Source: Phormidesmis priestleyi BC1401 (GTDB lineage Bacteria; Cyanobacteriota; Cyanobacteriia; Leptolyngbyales; Leptolyngbyaceae). Taken from it: a stretch of 48,488 bases of DNA. The first letter of the stretch is position 1, and each line of letters begins with the position of its first letter. This document shows positions 4,955-46,356 of this stretch, piece after piece. Both the position numbers and the translations under genes were made by a program. The stretch is taken from contig NZ_LXYR01000039.1 in the NCBI RefSeq assembly GCF_001650195.1, positions 1 through 48,488 on the forward strand. Direction: 5' to 3'. A model generated the notes under the pieces. It did no database searches. It was not told the origin of the DNA and saw only the letters and a list, made by a program, of their open reading frames with translations.

Positions 4955-5064
4955 AAGAAATCCTCTCTGGATTGCGATGATAGACACTCGACTATACCAG
5001 AGGAGCCGAAACCGATTCTAGCCATCTGGGTGAGTGTGTCAGCGATCGATGAGGAAGCGTCTGA

Positions 5065-5316
5065 CTAGCCGTAAGTAGTCATCGCCCTCACGAGGTATCC
5101 CAAGATCAGTCCGACCAAAAACGCCCAGACTTGCCCGGTTCTGACAAACTGATTCCAGGCTTTGCTGACATCGCCGCCCAAATCGGTTTCTTTAAACTGC
5201 TGGGCAAGCACGACCCAATCATGGGGCAGTTGCCAGTGCACGGTTTGCAGCACGTCGCTCCAGTGAGTCATTCCAGCGAGCCAGCTTGTCATCTCCTGCA
5301 TTACGTGAATCATCAT
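5065..5316 (-). CDS. Small membrane-anchored protein of unknown function
   Basis: 83 residues. The first two thirds are amphipathic and Trp/His-rich; one hydrophobic segment near the C-terminus (about 63-78, VWAFLVGLILGYLVRAM) looks like a single membrane anchor. I do not recognise a family. A strong GAGGAG ribosome site lies about 9 bases before the ATG, which supports a real gene. It lies between argH and a response-regulator gene, all on the minus strand but with gaps, so co-transcription is uncertain. Confidence 0.6.
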   Translation of the reverse strand: MMIHVMQEMTSWLAGMTHWSDVLQTVHWQLPHDWVVLAQQFKETDLGGDVSKAWNQFVRTGQVWAFLVGLILGYLVRAMTTYG

Positions 5317-5410
5317 CTTGGTCGTCTCCTCAAGCTGGTGGTGATTGCTTCGTTTGGGTCTAAGAGCTTTCTTGTACCACAGAACTGAGAAGACAACCTA
5401 TTTAATCCGG

Positions 5411-6124
5411 CTAATTTAATAGCGGCATGACGGAGTTGGCAATAATTGCAGCTTGGGTACGATCGCGCAGATTCAATCGCCCTAAAATACTAGCGACGTG
5501 GTTTTTGACCGTGCCTTCTGAGATTTCGAGCGATCGAGAGATTTCTTTGTTGCTTGAGCCAGACGCAATCAGTCTTAAAACTTGCCGTTCTCTGGCGGTG
5601 AGTTTGGCGAACCCAGGCGGAGGCGGGGACGATCGACGCTGCGCTGAGTTGAACGCTACGACATTTGAAGTGGCATTGCTGACATAAGCAATGGGCGGTG
5701 GAGCCGATTCGTCAGACGTTCCCAGGAGTTTAGAGAGAATTCCGGGGCTGAGTTGGGTATAGCCTTTGTGAACCGATCGCACAGCGTTGGCTAATTCATC
5801 GGGGCACAAGTCTTTGAGAAGATAGCCCTTTGCCCCAAATCTAAGGGCAGTGGTCACAGATTCTGAGTCATTTAAATCGGTCAAGATCAAAACTTGAGTG
5901 TCAGGAAATCGCTGACAGATGGTTTCGGTCGTGGCGATGCCTTCTGTCTTAGCAAAGCAGGGATCAATGAGAACAACGTCTGGATGTAGCGCTTCTACCT
6001 GGTCAATCGCGCTTTGTTGTGTATTTGCGTCTCCTACCACTTGCAAATCTTGCTCCTGATTGAGCAACGCCTTTAAGCCTTCACGAATCAGGTTTTGGTC
6101 ATCGACGAGTAATACACGAATCAT
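5411..6124 (-). CDS. NarL/FixJ-family response regulator
   Basis: 237 residues. The receiver domain (about 1-120) has Asp8/Asp9, phospho-acceptor Asp54, Thr82 and Lys104. A variable linker (about 125-165) leads to a LuxR-type helix-turn-helix, from LTARERQVLRLIASG to EGTVKNHVASIL (about 170-230). It is a DNA-binding transcription factor switched by phosphorylation. Odd point: after Asp54 the usual Met-Pro pair is replaced (DPCFAKTEG), so the switch region is atypical, although the phosphorylation residues are present. No histidine kinase gene is adjacent. The regulon cannot be told from sequence. Confidence 0.92.
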   Translation of the reverse strand: MIRVLLVDDQNLIREGLKALLNQEQDLQVVGDANTQQSAIDQVEALHPDVVLIDPCFAKTEGIATTETICQRFPDTQVLILTDLNDSESVTTALRFGAKGYLLKDLCPDELANAVRSVHKGYTQLSPGILSKLLGTSDESAPPPIAYVSNATSNVVAFNSAQRRSSPPPPGFAKLTARERQVLRLIASGSSNKEISRSLEISEGTVKNHVASILGRLNLRDRTQAAIIANSVMPLLN

Positions 6125-6356
6125 GGCAGATAGCTCCGATCGGGTTTAGCCACGGGTAGTCTTAAGTTTGCATTCACTCAAGGCTGATCTCAAGGAACAA
6201 CCTAGCCAAAAGACGACATTTCATCAGTTTTGTTCCTAGTTGGTCAAAAATTGATAAGTTTTGCTTTAGGGTGAACCAAGACAGAGGATCTTCTGACTTT
6301 AGCGTCGAGTTTGCACTAACGTATGCTGAAATGTTGGAAGCGTTTGAGCGTCTGAT

Positions 6357-7856
6357 ATGAGTGGGTTGATAAAGCCGATCGAGCAAAACAAAGTCTGGCT
6401 GTGGCTGGGATTGGTAGGGTTATTCATTGGGTCGCTGTGCCTGCGGTTTTGGGGGTTAGGACGATTTAATGCCCTGGTTTTTGATGAGGTTTATTACGTC
6501 AAGTTCGCCCACAATTATTTGACGCACACACCGTTTTTTGACGGGCATCCGCCTCTCAGCAAATATCTGATCGCGATCGGCATCTGGCTGGGCAATCAGC
6601 TTCCATTTGGCAAAGATACGGTGAATACGCTGGCGGGGTCTTCTCTCAGCACCTGGAGCTATCGCTGGCTGAACGCGCTGACGGGTTCGTTTATTCCGCT
6701 AGTAGTGGCGGCGATCGCCTATGAGTTAAGTCGTCGGCGCAGCTATGCCCTGATTGCTGGACTGTTTGCCGCCGCTGATGGACTCTTTCTCGTCGAGTCT
6801 CGCTACGCGCTCAACAACGTTTATTTAGTGATATTTGGGCTGTTGGGGCAGTGGTTTTTTCTCAAAGCACTGAATGCACCGGGCAAAAAATGGCTGCTGT
6901 GGATGGGGCTTGCAGGACTGTTTTTTGGTGCCTCCGCGTCGATTAAGTGGAATGGCTTGTGGTTTTTGTTGGGTGCCTATTTGCTGTGGGGCATTGCCTG
7001 GGCGATTCGACTCGTGAGAATGATCGGGCGATCGTCCACTCCCTCCGATGCCACACCGCTCTACCGTTTGGCGCGTCTCAATCCGTTCTATGTGCTGCTC
7101 ACGTTGGGAGCCATTCCCGCCCTTTTCTATCGCCTGATCTGGATTCCGCATCTCAGTCTCAGCCACGACTTTGGCTTCTGGGAAGTGCAAAAACAGATCT
7201 TGGCATATCACGAGCGGGTGGGCAGTGGTCCGACGGTTCACCCCTATTGCTCGACGTGGGTCGGCTGGATTTGGATGCAGCGCCCCGTCGCTTATTTTTA
7301 TCAAGTTGCGAGTAGTTTGACGGCTCCAATTCCGGCGAGTGGCACTGCCTCAGCCGTCACCTCAGGAAGCGTAATCTATGACGTTCATGCAATGGGAAAC
7401 CCGTTTTTGTGGTGGTTTTCGGCGGGAGCGATCGCCCTTCTCCTCTGGATTTTAATCGAGAATTTCAACTCCCTGATCAGCCCTGCCGAAACGCTCACTC
7501 CGCATCAGCAAATCGGGTTGTTGCCGCCCAACGAGGTCTGGATCGGGCTGTTTCTCGTCGTCAACTACGCCGCCAATCTTTTGCCGTGGGTGCGCGTGAC
7601 TCGCTGCGTGTTTCTCTATCACTACATGGGGTCTTCGGTGTTTGCGTCGCTGGCATTGGCTTGGTTGGTCGATCGCTGGTTTCGCAGCAATACGCCTCGA
7701 TTGAGAAGTCGGGCAACGTGGACAATCGCGATCGTGCTAGTCTCTTTTGTGTTCTGGATGCCCGTCTATCTGGGGCTGCCTCTGTTTGAATGGCAATATA
7801 ACCTACGAATGTGGCAGATTCAGATCGGTAACTTTTGGCTGCTGCGATGGATTTAA
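6357..7856 (+). CDS. PMT-family (GT39) membrane glycosyltransferase
   Basis: 499 residues with about ten or more membrane spans. The N-terminal loop contains VFDEVYYV (Asp43-Glu44), the DE motif of dolichyl-phosphate-mannose protein mannosyltransferases, followed by FDGHPPLSKYLI, also typical. The C-terminal half matches the four-TM PMT domain (LPWVRVTRCVFLYHYMGS). In bacteria such enzymes transfer mannose or another sugar from a polyprenyl-phosphate donor to exported proteins. Start ATG 6357 has no strong ribosome site. It is divergent from the response-regulator gene; the 232-base gap at 6125-6356 must hold both promoters, but I see no sharp motif in it. Confidence 0.9.
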   Translation: MSGLIKPIEQNKVWLWLGLVGLFIGSLCLRFWGLGRFNALVFDEVYYVKFAHNYLTHTPFFDGHPPLSKYLIAIGIWLGNQLPFGKDTVNTLAGSSLSTWSYRWLNALTGSFIPLVVAAIAYELSRRRSYALIAGLFAAADGLFLVESRYALNNVYLVIFGLLGQWFFLKALNAPGKKWLLWMGLAGLFFGASASIKWNGLWFLLGAYLLWGIAWAIRLVRMIGRSSTPSDATPLYRLARLNPFYVLLTLGAIPALFYRLIWIPHLSLSHDFGFWEVQKQILAYHERVGSGPTVHPYCSTWVGWIWMQRPVAYFYQVASSLTAPIPASGTASAVTSGSVIYDVHAMGNPFLWWFSAGAIALLLWILIENFNSLISPAETLTPHQQIGLLPPNEVWIGLFLVVNYAANLLPWVRVTRCVFLYHYMGSSVFASLALAWLVDRWFRSNTPRLRSRATWTIAIVLVSFVFWMPVYLGLPLFEWQYNLRMWQIQIGNFWLLRWI

Positions 7857-7889
7857 CTTCCGTCAATGTTGAATTTGCGTTAAATCAAA

Positions 7890-7918
7890 GAGCCTAGCCA
7901 GTTCTGCTGGCTAGGCTC
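7890..7918 (-). terminator. Rho-independent terminator behind the LRAT-fold gene
   Basis: A perfect 12-bp stem (7890-7901 with 7907-7918) and a 5-base loop are followed on the minus strand by TTTGATTT. It lies 13 bases beyond the stop of the minus-strand gene. On the plus strand the stem is followed by A's, so it serves the minus strand better. Confidence 0.7.
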
Positions 7919-7930
7919 AAAAAAGAAAAG

Positions 7931-8770
7931 TTAATCGCGATCCTTTTTTCGTAGTTTCTCAACTTGAGTGGAGTAAGCTTCACCGCAAACCATTTCTCTT
8001 GCCCAATGCTCACAGTTGTAACTAAGTTGGTTCCAAAACTTTGCCCGACCAGTGCAAATTTCAGCTTGAAATTTTGCAATTCTTGCTTCTATCTCAGCAT
8101 CGATCGCATCCGCAGGACGCTCTTTAAACTGCCAGACTGTCAAATCTTGCGTAAAGTGAACGTACCCAACTCCCATTTCAACAATTCGATTTTGTGGACG
8201 AATCGTTTCGCCTGTGAAGAAGTGCGCGATTCGATAGCCATTAGGTGTGGGTCGAACAATCCCATAATGCTCATACTCTCGCCCCTTATCATCCTGGCAA
8301 GGCACCACAACTAAGTCATTAGGGCGAATGGTGTTGCCTTGTTGGTCGCAGAATGCAGGCTCATTATCCAACAACGACACCAATTGAGTCAGAGTCGCTA
8401 ACTGAATGTCGGTCGCCTGAGACAGGTCTGCTGTCCATTTAGGGTCAGATTGCTCAACTAAGTTTGGGATAAGTTGATACTTCTCTAGCACCCAAGCCAA
8501 ACGCTTTTGAAGTTTTTGAACAGCATCAAAATACCAACCCCGATCGAAGGAGACAAACTGTTCGGTCGCCTCAATCTTTAGAAGAACTGCGATCGCGCGA
8601 CACGTCTCTAGAATTTTCTCGTCTTGGGTGTGTCTAGAAATTTGTGCTAATGCTTTTTGAATGGTTTCGCCGTGATAGAGGCGCTCTTGAACCTCAGCAA
8701 ATAAATAAAGGAGTTTTGCAAGATTCGCAGGCGTTTCTGGCTGTGGGCATTTCTCTCTATGCTTTGCCAT
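7931..8770 (-). CDS. Protein with C-terminal LRAT-like (permuted NlpC/P60) domain
   Basis: 279 residues. The N-terminal 140 are helical and unrecognised. The C-terminal part (about 145-265) shows the LRAT pattern: EYEHYGIV (His168), a second His in RIAHFF (His183), and YNCEHWA with Cys253, the nucleophile of the NCEHF motif. Such domains are thiol acyltransferases or hydrolases acting on lipids or peptides. The bacterial members are mostly uncharacterised, so the substrate is unknown. No signal peptide is seen. Its start overlaps the end of the upstream minus-strand ORF by 14 bases, so the two are probably one operon. Confidence 0.75.
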   Translation of the reverse strand: MAKHREKCPQPETPANLAKLLYLFAEVQERLYHGETIQKALAQISRHTQDEKILETCRAIAVLLKIEATEQFVSFDRGWYFDAVQKLQKRLAWVLEKYQLIPNLVEQSDPKWTADLSQATDIQLATLTQLVSLLDNEPAFCDQQGNTIRPNDLVVVPCQDDKGREYEHYGIVRPTPNGYRIAHFFTGETIRPQNRIVEMGVGYVHFTQDLTVWQFKERPADAIDAEIEARIAKFQAEICTGRAKFWNQLSYNCEHWAREMVCGEAYSTQVEKLRKKDRD

Positions 8771-30681: not shown

Positions 30682-31554
30682 ATGAATCGTCTAGACAGAT
30701 TTACCGATACTGCTTTAGGTCTGGTTTCTACTGAAAGCTTCCCAGCGATCGTGGGCATTGCTGACATGATGCTCAAATCGTCAGACGTGACGCTGGTTGG
30801 CTATGAAAAAACAGGCGGTGGGTTTTGCACCGCTGTTGTGCGAGGCGGCATTTCAGATGTGCGGCTGGCAGTGCAAGAAGGCATTGACCTTGCCGCTCAG
30901 TTTGGGCAGAAAGTCTCGACGCTGGTCGTTCCTCGCCCCTTAGCAAATCTAGAAGCGGTGTTGCCGATCGGAACTAAACTCGCCGAACTTGCCAAAGGGC
31001 GGCACGGTAATCCGTTTCGCAATCAGGCAGTGGGGTTGCTTGAAACTCGCGGTTTTCCGGCGATGGTCGGTGCGGCAGATGCCATGCTCAAATCGGCTGA
31101 CGTGACTTTGACAGCCTACGAAACGATCGGGTCAGGACTTTGCACCGCCATTATTCGCGGCACGATCGCCAACGTTGCGATGGCGATCGACGTAGGAATG
31201 CAAGAAGCTGAGCGCATCGGAGAACTTCACTCTGTAATGGTGATTCCTCGTGCGCTTGAAGATTTAGATCAAACCCTACCGCTTGCAAGCTGTTGGATCG
31301 AAGAACTACAGCCCTTGCGGTTGCCGATCGAACTTAAAGAAACCGAAAAAGAACTGGTGGCGTTACCCGAACTTCAGCAAGAGCTACAGTCGCTGGCACC
31401 GACCCAAACGGGGCTGCAACTTCCAGAATCGCGCCAGCCCAAGGCAGAAGACTTGCGAGAACTCGCGATGCCTATTCCTCAAGAAGAGACGATCGACGTG
31501 ACTCCGCCGATCGAGCTTAAAAAGCTCAATCAGCCCCCAGAAGAAGCCGTGTGA
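30682..31554 (+). CDS. ccmO: Carboxysome shell protein CcmO (tandem BMC domains)
   Basis: 290 residues. Two BMC domains in tandem: about 10-95 (LGLVSTESFPAIVGIADMML) and about 115-200 (VGLLETRGFPAMVGAADAML), followed by a 90-residue Gln/Glu/Pro-rich tail. Such proteins form pseudohexameric trimers in the beta-carboxysome shell and are essential for shell closure in other species. In many cyanobacteria ccmO is elsewhere; here it is at the end of the ccmKLMN cluster, 90 bases after the dead antitoxin gene. The upstream frame is open to 30592, but no better start is seen. Confidence 0.92.
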   Translation: MNRLDRFTDTALGLVSTESFPAIVGIADMMLKSSDVTLVGYEKTGGGFCTAVVRGGISDVRLAVQEGIDLAAQFGQKVSTLVVPRPLANLEAVLPIGTKLAELAKGRHGNPFRNQAVGLLETRGFPAMVGAADAMLKSADVTLTAYETIGSGLCTAIIRGTIANVAMAIDVGMQEAERIGELHSVMVIPRALEDLDQTLPLASCWIEELQPLRLPIELKETEKELVALPELQQELQSLAPTQTGLQLPESRQPKAEDLRELAMPIPQEETIDVTPPIELKKLNQPPEEAV

Positions 31555-31626
31555 GAACCCAGGATTGATGTGCAAAGTGTGACTGGATAGGGCATTCTAG
31601 GCACACACCTACCTCGTCCTTATCTA

Positions 31627-32775
31627 ATGGCGGATCATCGCGCTCTGCCCCCGGAGCAAACCTTCTCTGAAATCGTGCGTCGGCTAGAACAAGATGCAAA
31701 CGCGGCTCGCATTAAAAAGCTGATTTTATACGCCTGCAAAAACTGGTGGGAGAATGATCCCGATCGACTCAGTGTGATCAGCCTGCAAAGCCTGGTGCAA
31801 GAGCTGCGTTATCTTAACCCCACGTTAGAGCATCTGAAATACAAGTTACACCTACTGGTCGGCACCCTTAGCAAACAAGAAGAATATCTTCAAGTCGCAA
31901 CCACGATTATAGAAAACTTGACGGGGTTATATAGAAGTGCGACTCCGATCGAGAAAACGACGATCAACACCAATCCACTGGATGCGATCGGGGGCAAATT
32001 ACAAAACCAAATTACAAAAATATTAGAACAAGAAGTCCATTCTAGCCGCATTAAAAAGCTAATGATTTATGCTGCCCGCAAACATTGGGAAGCTGACCCG
32101 CTTAAAATTGACCAGGCGGAGATCAATAGACTAATCAGCGAATTAGCGCATCAATATCCGACGATCGAGAGTTTGCAAATCGGACTGGCGGCAATCGTCA
32201 AAAGCTTAAATAAGCCGATTGAGTATGCGGCGATCGCCAACATGATTTTGCGTGAAATGGGCAAGCTTTATTCTCAGGAAGGTGAGGTTATCAGTCCAGA
32301 GTCTACAAACGATTTAGCGACTCAAGCAGTCGCTCCGCCGAGTTCTCAAACTGCACCTGCGATCGAGCTTTTTGATATGCGATTAGAAATCGTCAAGTTT
32401 GCTAACCCGCTTCGAGCAAAAATTCTGCTGTTTTCTCTGGTCTACTATCCATTTACCTACAAAGAACAAGATTGGTCAAATCTCAAGCTCTATAGCCTTG
32501 AAGGATTGCTGCGCAGCGTCACAACGGTCTGTCACTCTTTAGAAGATCTGCAATCAAATCTAGAAGTGGCAGCACAACAGTTGAACCCACCTGAGGATTA
32601 TGTCGAGGTGGTTCGCGTCATTCTCAAAAGTCTGAAACCAGGCTATATCAGCCTTCAGCAGCACGTTCAGCAGGCTTTGCAGATCACTGCCGAGGTTACA
32701 CGGGCAAACTCCACGCAAGTTTTAATCAGTGGTGTGCCGAAATCAAGTTCAGCGATCGGGAATCAAGAATTATGA
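31627..32775 (+). CDS. Unrecognised protein with three homologous ~95-residue repeats
   Basis: 382 residues, helical, no signal peptide or membrane span. Repeat 1 (about 10-101) includes ARIKKLILYACKNWWENDP; repeat 2 (about 122-217) includes SRIKKLMIYAARKHWEADP; repeat 3 (about 255-350) is more diverged (RAKILLFSLVYYPFTYKEQDW). Each ends with a pattern like LNKPIEYAAIANMIL. I do not recognise the family. It begins 72 bases after ccmO, and its last bases (ATGA) overlap the pentapeptide-repeat gene, so the two are translationally coupled and may belong to the ccm transcript. A helical scaffold or adaptor is possible (inference). Confidence 0.7.
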   Translation: MADHRALPPEQTFSEIVRRLEQDANAARIKKLILYACKNWWENDPDRLSVISLQSLVQELRYLNPTLEHLKYKLHLLVGTLSKQEEYLQVATTIIENLTGLYRSATPIEKTTINTNPLDAIGGKLQNQITKILEQEVHSSRIKKLMIYAARKHWEADPLKIDQAEINRLISELAHQYPTIESLQIGLAAIVKSLNKPIEYAAIANMILREMGKLYSQEGEVISPESTNDLATQAVAPPSSQTAPAIELFDMRLEIVKFANPLRAKILLFSLVYYPFTYKEQDWSNLKLYSLEGLLRSVTTVCHSLEDLQSNLEVAAQQLNPPEDYVEVVRVILKSLKPGYISLQQHVQQALQITAEVTRANSTQVLISGVPKSSSAIGNQEL

Positions 32776-33767
32776 ACGGTCAAGAAGTGCTGGGTCGCTA
32801 TGAATCGGGAGATGCAAATTTCACGAAGGAAAACCTGAGCGGAGTCAATCTGACGGGAGCAGACTTAATTGGGGTCAATTTAGCTCACGCTGACCTCCAT
32901 CATTCGATTTTGATCTTTGCATATTTGAACCGATCGAATCTCACCCACGCCAATCTCAAAGGCACAAAGCTGTGTGGTGCAAATCTCAGTCAGGCAACTC
33001 TATGTAACGCAAGTCTACGAGATGCCGATCTACATGGAGCCATTCTCTATGGGGCTGATTTGCGAGGTGCCGACCTGGGTTTAGCAACGTTGCTGGATGC
33101 CAATTTTAGAGATGCCGATTTGCGAAACGTCAATTTCAGCGGGGCAGATCTGCGGGGTGCTTGCCTGCGCGGGGCAAACCTACGAGAAGAAAAACGTGCT
33201 TACAAAGGGGCAAACCTACGCGGGGCAGATCTGCGAGGTGCCGACTTGCGCGGAGCTAATTTAGCCGGGGCTGACCTGAGTCGATCGAACCTGATCGGCG
33301 CAAACCTCAGTGAAGCTAGCCTCCGCAATGCAGACCTCACCGAAGCCAACTTAACCGACGCAATTCTCAACGGGACGTTTTTAACCGACGCGATTCTCAC
33401 CGAGGCAAATCTCAGCCAAGCGACGTTACGCAACTGCAAGCTAAACCGCGCTCAATTAAACGAGGCAAATTTATCGGACGCTGATTTGAGAGATGCCACA
33501 CTGAGCGATGCAAAACTGCACAAAACGAATTTTCAGCGGGCGAACTTGACTCGATCGCGCCTCAATCGTGCCGAATTTACTCACGCCAATCTTCGTTATG
33601 CAATCTTGGTAGACGCTCTTTTGATCAAGGCTTATTTGGGTCGAGCCGATTTACGCGACGCAAATTTAACGGGGGCAAATTTAGCGGGGGCAGAACTCAG
33701 CAGCGCTCTGTTGAATGGCGCAATTTTGCAGGGCGCAACCTTGCCCGATGGCAGTGTGCAGACCTAA
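32772..33767 (+). CDS. Pentapeptide-repeat protein
   Basis: 331 residues, almost wholly A(D/N)LxX repeats (ANLSQATLCNASLRDADL and on), which fold as a right-handed quadrilateral beta-helix. One break occurs near residues 138-146 (REEKRAYKG), where the regular pattern is interrupted by a charged loop. No other domain and no signal peptide. Pentapeptide proteins can mimic DNA or act as structural rods; in cyanobacteria most are uncharacterised. ATG 32772 overlaps the previous stop. Convergence with nothing; cadD follows on the same strand. Confidence 0.9.
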   Translation: MNGQEVLGRYESGDANFTKENLSGVNLTGADLIGVNLAHADLHHSILIFAYLNRSNLTHANLKGTKLCGANLSQATLCNASLRDADLHGAILYGADLRGADLGLATLLDANFRDADLRNVNFSGADLRGACLRGANLREEKRAYKGANLRGADLRGADLRGANLAGADLSRSNLIGANLSEASLRNADLTEANLTDAILNGTFLTDAILTEANLSQATLRNCKLNRAQLNEANLSDADLRDATLSDAKLHKTNFQRANLTRSRLNRAEFTHANLRYAILVDALLIKAYLGRADLRDANLTGANLAGAELSSALLNGAILQGATLPDGSVQT

Positions 33768-33827
33768 CTTGCGAATGCACCCGATAAATCCTGTAAGTTA
33801 ATAACTCTAACCTTCAACGTGCGACAG

Positions 33828-34487
33828 ATGAGTGAGTTGATCAGCGCCATTTTTGCTGGAGTGACCGCCTTTATTGCCACCAATTTAGATGACCTTGTGA
33901 TCTTGATGCTGTTTTTTGCACAGATCAATGCCGTCTTTCGTCCCAAACATATCGTGGTGGGTCAATACCTAGGCTTTGGTGCTTTGATTCTTGCAAGTTT
34001 GCCCGGTTTTTTTGGCGGCTTGATAGTGCCAAAACCCTGGATTGGGCTGCTCGGATTGGTCCCGATCGCGATCGGGCTTTATCAACTCATTCACCCAGAA
34101 GATGAGAATGAAGTACAGACGGTCGCCAACGACTTTCAATCAACAATCAAGTTGCCAATTCTGTCAGCGTTAGGGCTGTTGGCTCCTCAAAGTTATCAGG
34201 TGGCTGCGGTGACGATCGCCAACGGTGGCGACAACATCGGAATTTATGTGCCGTTGTTTGCCGCTAGCAGTGCAGCCAGTCTCAGAGTGATTCTCAGCGT
34301 ATTTTTTGTGCTGGTGGGAGTATGGTGCTACGTGGCGTATCAACTCGCTCGTCACCCGATCGTCGCTCGTGTGTTGACGCGCTATGGTGCGGCGATCGTG
34401 CCTTTTGTGCTCATCGGGGTAGGAATTTTTATTCTGATTGACAGCGAGACTTATAGGCTGCTCATAACCCTTCAGTCTCTTAATTGA
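33828..34487 (+). CDS. CadD-family cadmium resistance transporter
   Basis: 219 residues from ATG 33828; a GTG at 33819 is in frame. About six membrane spans. FIATNLDDLVILMLFF is the CadD signature, with the acidic pair in the first span. The family (LysE-like superfamily) exports cadmium or other cations; cyanobacterial members are untested and may have other substrates. The gene ends inside a strong bidirectional terminator shared with rpiA. Confidence 0.82.
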   Translation: MSELISAIFAGVTAFIATNLDDLVILMLFFAQINAVFRPKHIVVGQYLGFGALILASLPGFFGGLIVPKPWIGLLGLVPIAIGLYQLIHPEDENEVQTVANDFQSTIKLPILSALGLLAPQSYQVAAVTIANGGDNIGIYVPLFAASSAASLRVILSVFFVLVGVWCYVAYQLARHPIVARVLTRYGAAIVPFVLIGVGIFILIDSETYRLLITLQSLN

Positions 34488-46066: not shown

Positions 46067-46226
46067 ACCTGCCTCCTAATCACATCCAGCAAATCAACCT
46101 TTAACAGGCTAGCGAATAGTCATCTTGATTCATTTACCTACATAATATTTAGACATGACAAACCACTGCGATTCTTTCCTAAAACTTGATTCTCCTGCTT
46201 TAGAATCGTAGCCTTGTCTAATTCAA

Positions 46227-46311
46227 CGGAGAGGGGGGGATTCGAACCCCCGTTGAGTTGCCCCAAAGCGCATTTCGAGTGCGCCGCATTCAACCGCTCT
46301 GCCACCTCTCC
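46227..46311 (-). tRNA. trnS-CGA: tRNA-Ser (anticodon CGA)
   Basis: 85 bases without CCA. On the minus strand the acceptor stem GGAGAGG pairs with CCTCTCC. The D-arm is TGGCAGAGCGGTTGAATGCG, and the anticodon stem GCGCA/TGCGC encloses CTCGAAA with CGA. A long variable arm of the serine type and the T-loop GTTCGAATC follow. CGA reads codon UCG. No CCA is encoded. Confidence 0.96.
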
Positions 46312-46356
46312 AAGAGAGCCTGATGGTCAATCATCACTCTTTGGTCATTAATCATA

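Follow-up and report, generated by a model that had tools for sequence, protein, structure and literature searches.

REP and PENT, two adjoining genes of the cyanobacterium Phormidesmis priestleyi BC1401, represent an old and widespread cyanobacterial unit, probably related to signalling, which stands beside carboxysome genes in only one lineage. It is the association of REP with PENT, and not the carboxysome link, that is conserved. Sequence comparisons support the existence of an undescribed pair that is widespread among cyanobacteria and combines a putative helical adaptor, carrying arrays of a threonine motif, with a dedicated pentapeptide rod. A literature search covering titles and abstract openings returned no description of a helical-repeat and pentapeptide pair of this kind.

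The gene pair and its products

The window, by which we mean the whole stretch of 48,488 bases that was analysed, a complete contig, carries in contig order two ndhF/ndhD/chp sets, ccmK, ccmK, ccmL, ccmM, ccmN, ccmO, REP and PENT, followed by a CadD-type transporter gene and rpiA. The names ndh, chp, ccmK, ccmL and rpiA are presumptive, and the others come from Pfam matches. An earlier, sequence-only reading had described a helical repeat scaffold translationally coupled to a beta-helical rod by an ATGA overlap, 72 bases behind ccmO and on the same strand, and this layout was confirmed. The upstream neighbour ccmO (30682-31554, + strand), which contains two BMC domains (PF00936, E 5.8e-48, in two stretches) and lies outside the conserved pair, is separated from REP by a 72-base gap (31555-31626). 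No promoter- or terminator-like site was found on the + strand of this gap, in a scan that gave fewer sites than its shuffles and so carries no weight in either direction. REP then runs from 31627 to 32775, and its stop overlaps the start of PENT in ATGA at 32772-32775; such overlaps are found in other lineages too. The CadD/PF03596 transporter gene (33819-34487) adjoins PENT on the same strand, and is also found after PENT in the other P. priestleyi locus (L031/L096), though not in Myxacorys (L033) or in genome G003 (L032). The sole tRNA gene found in the window is a tRNA-Ser with anticodon CGA (46226-46312, - strand).

REP encodes an undescribed helical repeat protein of 382 aa, delineated by its ORF, a repeat HMM and an AlphaFold2 model. 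Repeat 1 covers residues 17-102 (31675-31932), repeat 2 residues 130-215 (32014-32271), and repeat 3, a divergent C-terminal type with the sequence NPLRAKILLFS, residues 251-340 (32377-32646). The repeat HMM was seeded with these same three copies and its bit scores are therefore no independent test of the repeats. Repeats 1 and 2 share 37% identity (BLASTP, E 4e-20), and BLASTP gave no match between repeats 3 and 2. A profile built from first-type repeats alone, however, matched 94 of 96 last repeats, that of the window at E 3e-11, and comparison of the first-type and last-repeat profiles gave a probability of 98.6%. REP of the window therefore has three repeat copies, the third being divergent and devoid of the W-E-DP block. 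Three copies had indeed been proposed from the letters alone, with a length of about 95 residues and a W-E-DP pattern throughout; the copy number stands, whereas the unit is closer to 85 aa, joined by variable linkers (start-to-start distances of 113 and 121 aa), and the block is missing from repeat 3. In the first set of loci, 116 repeat domains were found with the repeat HMM.

The AlphaFold2 model of REP (42 aligned sequences, mean pLDDT 83.9) is all helical, as had been anticipated, with about six helices per unit; the helical units are well predicted and the linkers poorly. No match above cut-off was obtained in Pfam (best E 0.33) or NCBIfam (best E 0.033); the best PHROGs match reached only E 0.076, and PDB sequences gave none. 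Pfam detected neither an FHA domain nor a PF00211 class III cyclase domain in REP of the window. When the model was compared with PDB structures, the best Foldseek match had an E of 0.47, and VIA-align ranked p120RasGAP first with a Z of 5.3, within the range that its notes call uninformative for helical models. As far as the sequence searches of Pfam, NCBIfam, PHROGs and PDB reach, REP is a new family.

PENT (32772-33767, + strand; 331 aa), the conserved partner, is a right-handed pentapeptide beta-helix, according to Pfam (PF00805, E 3.2e-84, cut-off passed), alignments and a model with a pLDDT of 97.3. Its best PDB match is HetL (3du1, E 6e-17). The protein scores 211 bits against the NCBIfam Alr5209 model (NF052603) and passes its equivalog cut-off of 125; this model has only 113 positions and matches PENT as six separate stretches, so it sees repeats and not the 331-aa protein as a whole. 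The NCBIfam cut-offs were not reached for HetL (equivalog, 201 of 260 bits), Qnr (104 of 240 bits) or MfpA (85 of 360 bits). The earlier reading had named a role for neither protein; REP has no name in the libraries searched, and PENT passes the Alr5209 cut-off. PENT is an ordinary Rfr-fold protein, sharing its fold with HetL, Np275/276, Alr5209 and other pentapeptide proteins. It differs from HetL and Alr5209 in having its own N-terminal cap, its own insert and REP as a near-constant genetic neighbour. The cap helix (residues 3-11; 32778-32804) belongs to the family consensus MNAxELLxRYxAG, and the conserved insert EEKRAYKG (residues 139-146; 33186-33209) interrupts the coil. PENT of the window is 47-92% identical to 29 relatives, and the relatives adjoining REP form a tight group of about 330 aa with the same cap and the insert at 139-146. 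The most conserved outward positions are 30-34, 85-89, 130-139, 147-151, 157-161, 222-226, 267-271, 287-291 and 307-311.

Distribution of the pair and its place beside ccmO

REP was conserved in 34 of the 39 genomes searched, including that of the window, and in 40 of the 42 genomes of the window's family. A phylum-wide sample of 386 cyanobacterial genomes yielded 92 with REP, every positive being in the window's class; this count may be low, since in most genomes scoring was limited to the five best candidates. Within the first 35 loci, PENT lies no further than two ORFs downstream of REP in 33, the two exceptions being a contig end inside REP and a second REP copy. A scan of named genomes took in Nostoc, Anabaena, Microcoleus, Leptolyngbya, Spirulina, Pseudanabaenaceae and others. 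From it the best 80 of at least 562 PENT relatives were kept, a sample that is accordingly chosen by PENT; among these 80, REP is directly upstream of PENT in 77, with 13 pairs overlapping or abutting and 55 at most 100 bases apart, while two of the three exceptions begin less than 455 bases from a contig end and the third (L132) has an unrelated gene.

Stretches of 7-12 kb were examined in 80 of 84 further REP-positive genomes of the phylum. PENT is found just downstream of REP in 65 of these loci, leaving 15 without an adjacent PENT. Five of the 15 belong to family f17, and all five have a second REP-like gene with PENT behind it (L292-L296). Three others are kinase fusions: two of these genomes have a further REP adjoining PENT, in the opposite order (L297, L299), and in the third no PENT was called beside its other REP (L298). 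Unrelated genes occupy the PENT position in a further five (L221, L229, L234, L270 and L286), L287 is a fragment and no REP was called in L276. Several individual loci deviate in other ways. In L236 and L238, a PENT paralogue of about 330 aa lies on either side of REP. In L142 (Cyanobacteria bacterium RM1_2_2), counted among the 77, REP is broken into three overlapping ORFs, through a sequencing error or as a pseudogene. The REP genes of L140 (6094-7815, + strand), L128 and L174, of Microcoleus, Kamptonema and Oscillatoriales type, encode an extra C-terminal domain of about 90 aa (PKAIAxLINQxLQPKGI...); searches of Pfam and NCBIfam gave nothing for the L140 protein.

Among the genomes seen, ccmO stands beside REP in five only, all in the window's family: the window's own, P. 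priestleyi ULC007 (L031/L096), G003, Myxacorys almedinensis (G019, L033/L097) and G008. These represent five of the 36 REP-carrying family genomes whose neighbourhoods were seen (out of 40), the stretch often covering 1.5 kb only and little or nothing upstream in G431 and G432. Only two of the best 80 of at least 562 named loci have ccmO next to REP, both among the five, and none of the 80 phylum loci has a ccm match in its 7-12 kb. In eight relatives without the linkage (G005, G006, G012, G014, G022, G420, G421 and G426), ccmO and REP share a contig at a distance of at least 0.47 Mb. The PENT tree, from which the cut PENT of G008 was left out, places the four ccmO-linked rows in one starred clade of 13 in which REP is without a cyclase. 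A survey of this kind had been proposed with the idea of a carboxysome-associated or -positioning factor; REP homologues lie mostly away from ccm genes, which had been named among the outcomes that would refute it, and as a general reading of REP-PENT this idea was rejected on gene neighbourhoods. The ccmO neighbourhood is a lineage feature, which may be either incidental or a recruitment, and the pair may have a lineage-specific carboxysome role in the five linked genomes. Separately, L172 (Cyanobacteria bacterium Co-bin13) has at 2663 a CcmK-like gene whose product is 56% identical to CcmK of the window; a cyclase-REP gene (6115-7995) lies about 3 kb downstream of it.

Fused domains and the threonine motif

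In many Leptolyngbya-type genomes, a class III cyclase domain is found N-terminal to the REP repeats. PF00211 was matched in three of the four REP relatives scanned (E 3e-11 to 9e-13), and also in L055. All 28 cyclase-REP proteins contain the motifs FTD, LKxTGDGL and DxxGxGVNxAARL, near variants being allowed, which we take to be catalytic, and PENT follows 27 of them. The cyclase label is scattered over the PENT tree with seven changes, so that the order of gain and loss is not assigned with confidence. The genome of the window has no close cyclase of the REP-fused subfamily, the best reaching 32% identity. Fusions with a PF00069 kinase occur in six genomes of two families (L230, L265 and L268; L288, L289 and L290); the kinase domain precedes the REP repeats and its motifs are present in all six. 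The kinase part of the L265 fusion (5047-7401, - strand) matches the PADLOC model PD-T4-6 at E 9.7e-97, which is stronger than a generic kinase might give.

One REP repeat precedes ComFB in two proteins scanned (L300 and L304), and one precedes WD40 repeats in L291. ComFB proteins form a family of c-di-NMP receptors reported to bind c-di-AMP and c-di-GMP (PMC12313861). For the REP repeat itself no homology to ComFB was detected: this had been considered from their similar LNR/LY endings and was rejected at an hhalign probability of about 1%, using 12 ComFB sequences that remained from 30 loci after a frame filter. On sequence grounds, the REP fusions point to signalling. Genes flanking the pair were also surveyed, using 66 of 134, all on the strand of REP and with the ccm-linked loci left out. 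No family dominates these 66, glycosyltransferase 2 occurring in seven and cation efflux and GtrA in five each. FHA and Ser/Thr kinase are not among the 25 families listed of their 98, which do include HisKA and GAF with four genes each.

The linkers and C-terminal tails of REP are enriched in a short threonine motif. The set analysed comprised 210 linker and tail segments from 76 of 111 REP rows; dropped beforehand were L142, L188, L202, L203, L204 and L051 as fragmented, cut or partial, along with any protein of fewer than two repeats, duplicate proteins and rows more than 80% identical in the last repeat. The looser pattern [DE]-(0 to 2)-T-x-[VILMF] was observed 233 times in these segments, against 80.5 (sd 9.8) in shuffles, while its Ser form was observed 87 times against 104. 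In control windows of disorder-like character from other ORFs of the same loci, the looser pattern occurred 143 times against 144 (ratio 0.99). The strict form with the acidic residue at -2, [DE]xTx-hydrophobic, was observed 125 times against 27 expected; its z of 21.5, like the other z values, overstates independence, since motif copies are partly shared by descent. Other residues at the Thr position of the strict motif gave 32 against 36 expected for Ser, 9 against 19 for Val and 15 against 13 for Ile, with a mild enrichment of Ala (50 against 34, z 2.8). Cys at this position of the looser pattern is enriched as well (21 against 5.8 expected), probably through tails of the TCQF type. T(C)Q-hydrophobic or a sequence close to it occurs in 57 of 115 REP tails, and the C-terminal tail is of the DDxTCQF type in three of the six kinase fusions.

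FHA domains read phosphothreonine rather than phosphoserine, and the preference for Thr over Ser is what a phospho-Thr/FHA system would leave. The genome of the window has 13 FHA matches. REP of the window is itself a poor example of the motif, which counts against a signalling reading. Its linkers and tail contain a single match to the strict form, EKTTI in linker 1 (residues 109-113; 31951-31965), and the tail segment NSTQVL, which includes the weak tail-motif form TQVL (residues 363-366; 32713-32724), has no acidic residue at -2.

A close parallel is GarA/OdhI-type Thr/FHA signalling, with which REP has in common that six genomes join its repeats to a Ser/Thr kinase. PknB phosphorylates the second Thr of the GarA segment ETTSVF, and the acidic-x-Thr-x-hydrophobic spacing of REP fits this second Thr only. 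The first, Thr21, misses the spacing and is the reported target of PknG, ETTSVF being described as the phosphorylatable segment of GarA/OdhI (PMC8546545). REP further differs from GarA/OdhI in lacking an FHA match, in bearing its motifs in several linkers and the tail, and in its undescribed helical repeats.

A candidate signalling unit and its significance

We give about even chances to the proposal that REP-PENT is a signalling unit, in which REP serves as a Thr-phosphorylated, FHA-read adaptor working with a dedicated pentapeptide rod. REP would consist of helical adaptor repeats of an undescribed kind, with disordered linkers between them. Ser/Thr kinases would phosphorylate the Thr of the acidic-x-Thr-x-hydrophobic motif in its linkers and tail, and FHA-domain proteins would then read the phospho-Thr. 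PENT, a beta-helical rod of near-constant length made together with REP, is probably bound to it and may present or cap it; gene adjacency suggests this contact. In other lineages the repeats are fused to the enzyme or receptor that, on this proposal, they serve (class III cyclase, Ser/Thr kinase or ComFB); in the window's lineage the pair is free-standing and now lies behind ccmO. The repeats, the fusions, the Thr motif and the conservation of the pair are observed, while phosphorylation, FHA reading, contact of REP with PENT and any effect on carbon metabolism or the carboxysome are inferred. Against the proposal count the restriction of kinase fusions to six genomes, the lack of an FHA gene that stands out beside the pair, and the 15 of 80 phylum loci without an adjacent PENT.

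Among the alternatives, the one we consider unlikely, yet the least so, is a scaffold without a part in signalling, whose Thr motif would be a short beta-strand peptide docking on PENT or another partner, with no part for phosphorylation. Some copies of the motif, for example TQVLI and TVFST, look prone to form strands, PENT offers a long beta-helix with conserved patches, and Ala, mildly enriched in place of Thr, agrees with it; the beta-branched Val and Ile, however, do not replace Thr. Somewhat less probable still is a remnant of an adenylyl cyclase system, in which the pair would regulate or anchor a cyclase, the form in the window acting on a separate one. The class III nucleotidyl cyclase domain, with its presumed catalytic motifs, is N-terminal in 28 different REP proteins, 27 of them followed by PENT, and cAMP is reported to act in carbon regulation (PMC13249358). 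Yet the domain is absent from REP of the window, whose genome lacks a close cyclase of the subfamily; the REP neighbour of 81 of 107 different PENT rows has no cyclase domain, and kinases, ComFB and WD40 are further fusion partners of these repeats. We regard a phage-defence module as scarcely credible: PADLOC relates the kinase portion of one fusion to PD-T4-6 and the cyclase portion of another to Pycsar cyclases, but these matches are probably generic, neither REP nor PENT is itself matched in PADLOC, and the presence of REP in nearly all genomes of the family is unlike the patchy occurrence of defence genes.

A direct role in the carboxysome, with REP and PENT binding the shell or CcmO/CcmN and acting in assembly or placement, seems to us very unlikely. 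In five genomes, which belong to three genera, REP is the first gene to follow ccmO on the same strand, it starts only 72 bases after ccmO in the window, and ccmO, REP and PENT are kept together in G003 and G008 with no other ccm gene in the stretch examined. But almost everywhere REP homologues are found apart from ccm genes, ccmO and REP of G003 have an opposite-strand VKOR gene between them, and Pfam detected in neither protein of the pair a BMC shell domain, an ATPase or any other domain of the carboxysome. The positioning system McdA/McdB, which uses a ParA-type ATPase, resembles the pair in suspected task and genomic setting only, and differs from it in that neither REP nor PENT matches an ATPase family in Pfam. 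Furthermore, the word pentapeptide is absent from the main text of a 2026 review of the carbon-concentrating mechanism (PMC13249358). A bolder form of the signalling proposal, which we hold to be quite improbable, would make REP-PENT a platform gathering kinase, cyclase and c-di-NMP inputs on phospho-Thr linkers, recruited behind ccmO in Phormidesmis/Myxacorys, where phosphorylation or second-messenger state would act directly on shell assembly or placement.

The REP family, present in 92 of the 386 cyanobacterial genomes and 40 of the 42 of the window's family, is without a Pfam or NCBIfam model in the copies searched, although its members include fusions with cyclase, kinase and c-di-NMP receptor domains. 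Nostoc is reported to carry hetL and 31 further pentapeptide genes; HetL works by contacting the protein HetR, and the HetL-HetR complex has been called the second protein-protein complex known for a pentapeptide protein (PMC7476756). A near-constant genetic partner that bears an array of Thr motifs provides a direct handle on the function of one pentapeptide protein and, if the signalling proposal holds, REP-PENT would also help to show where Ser/Thr kinases and FHA proteins exert their action in cyanobacteria.
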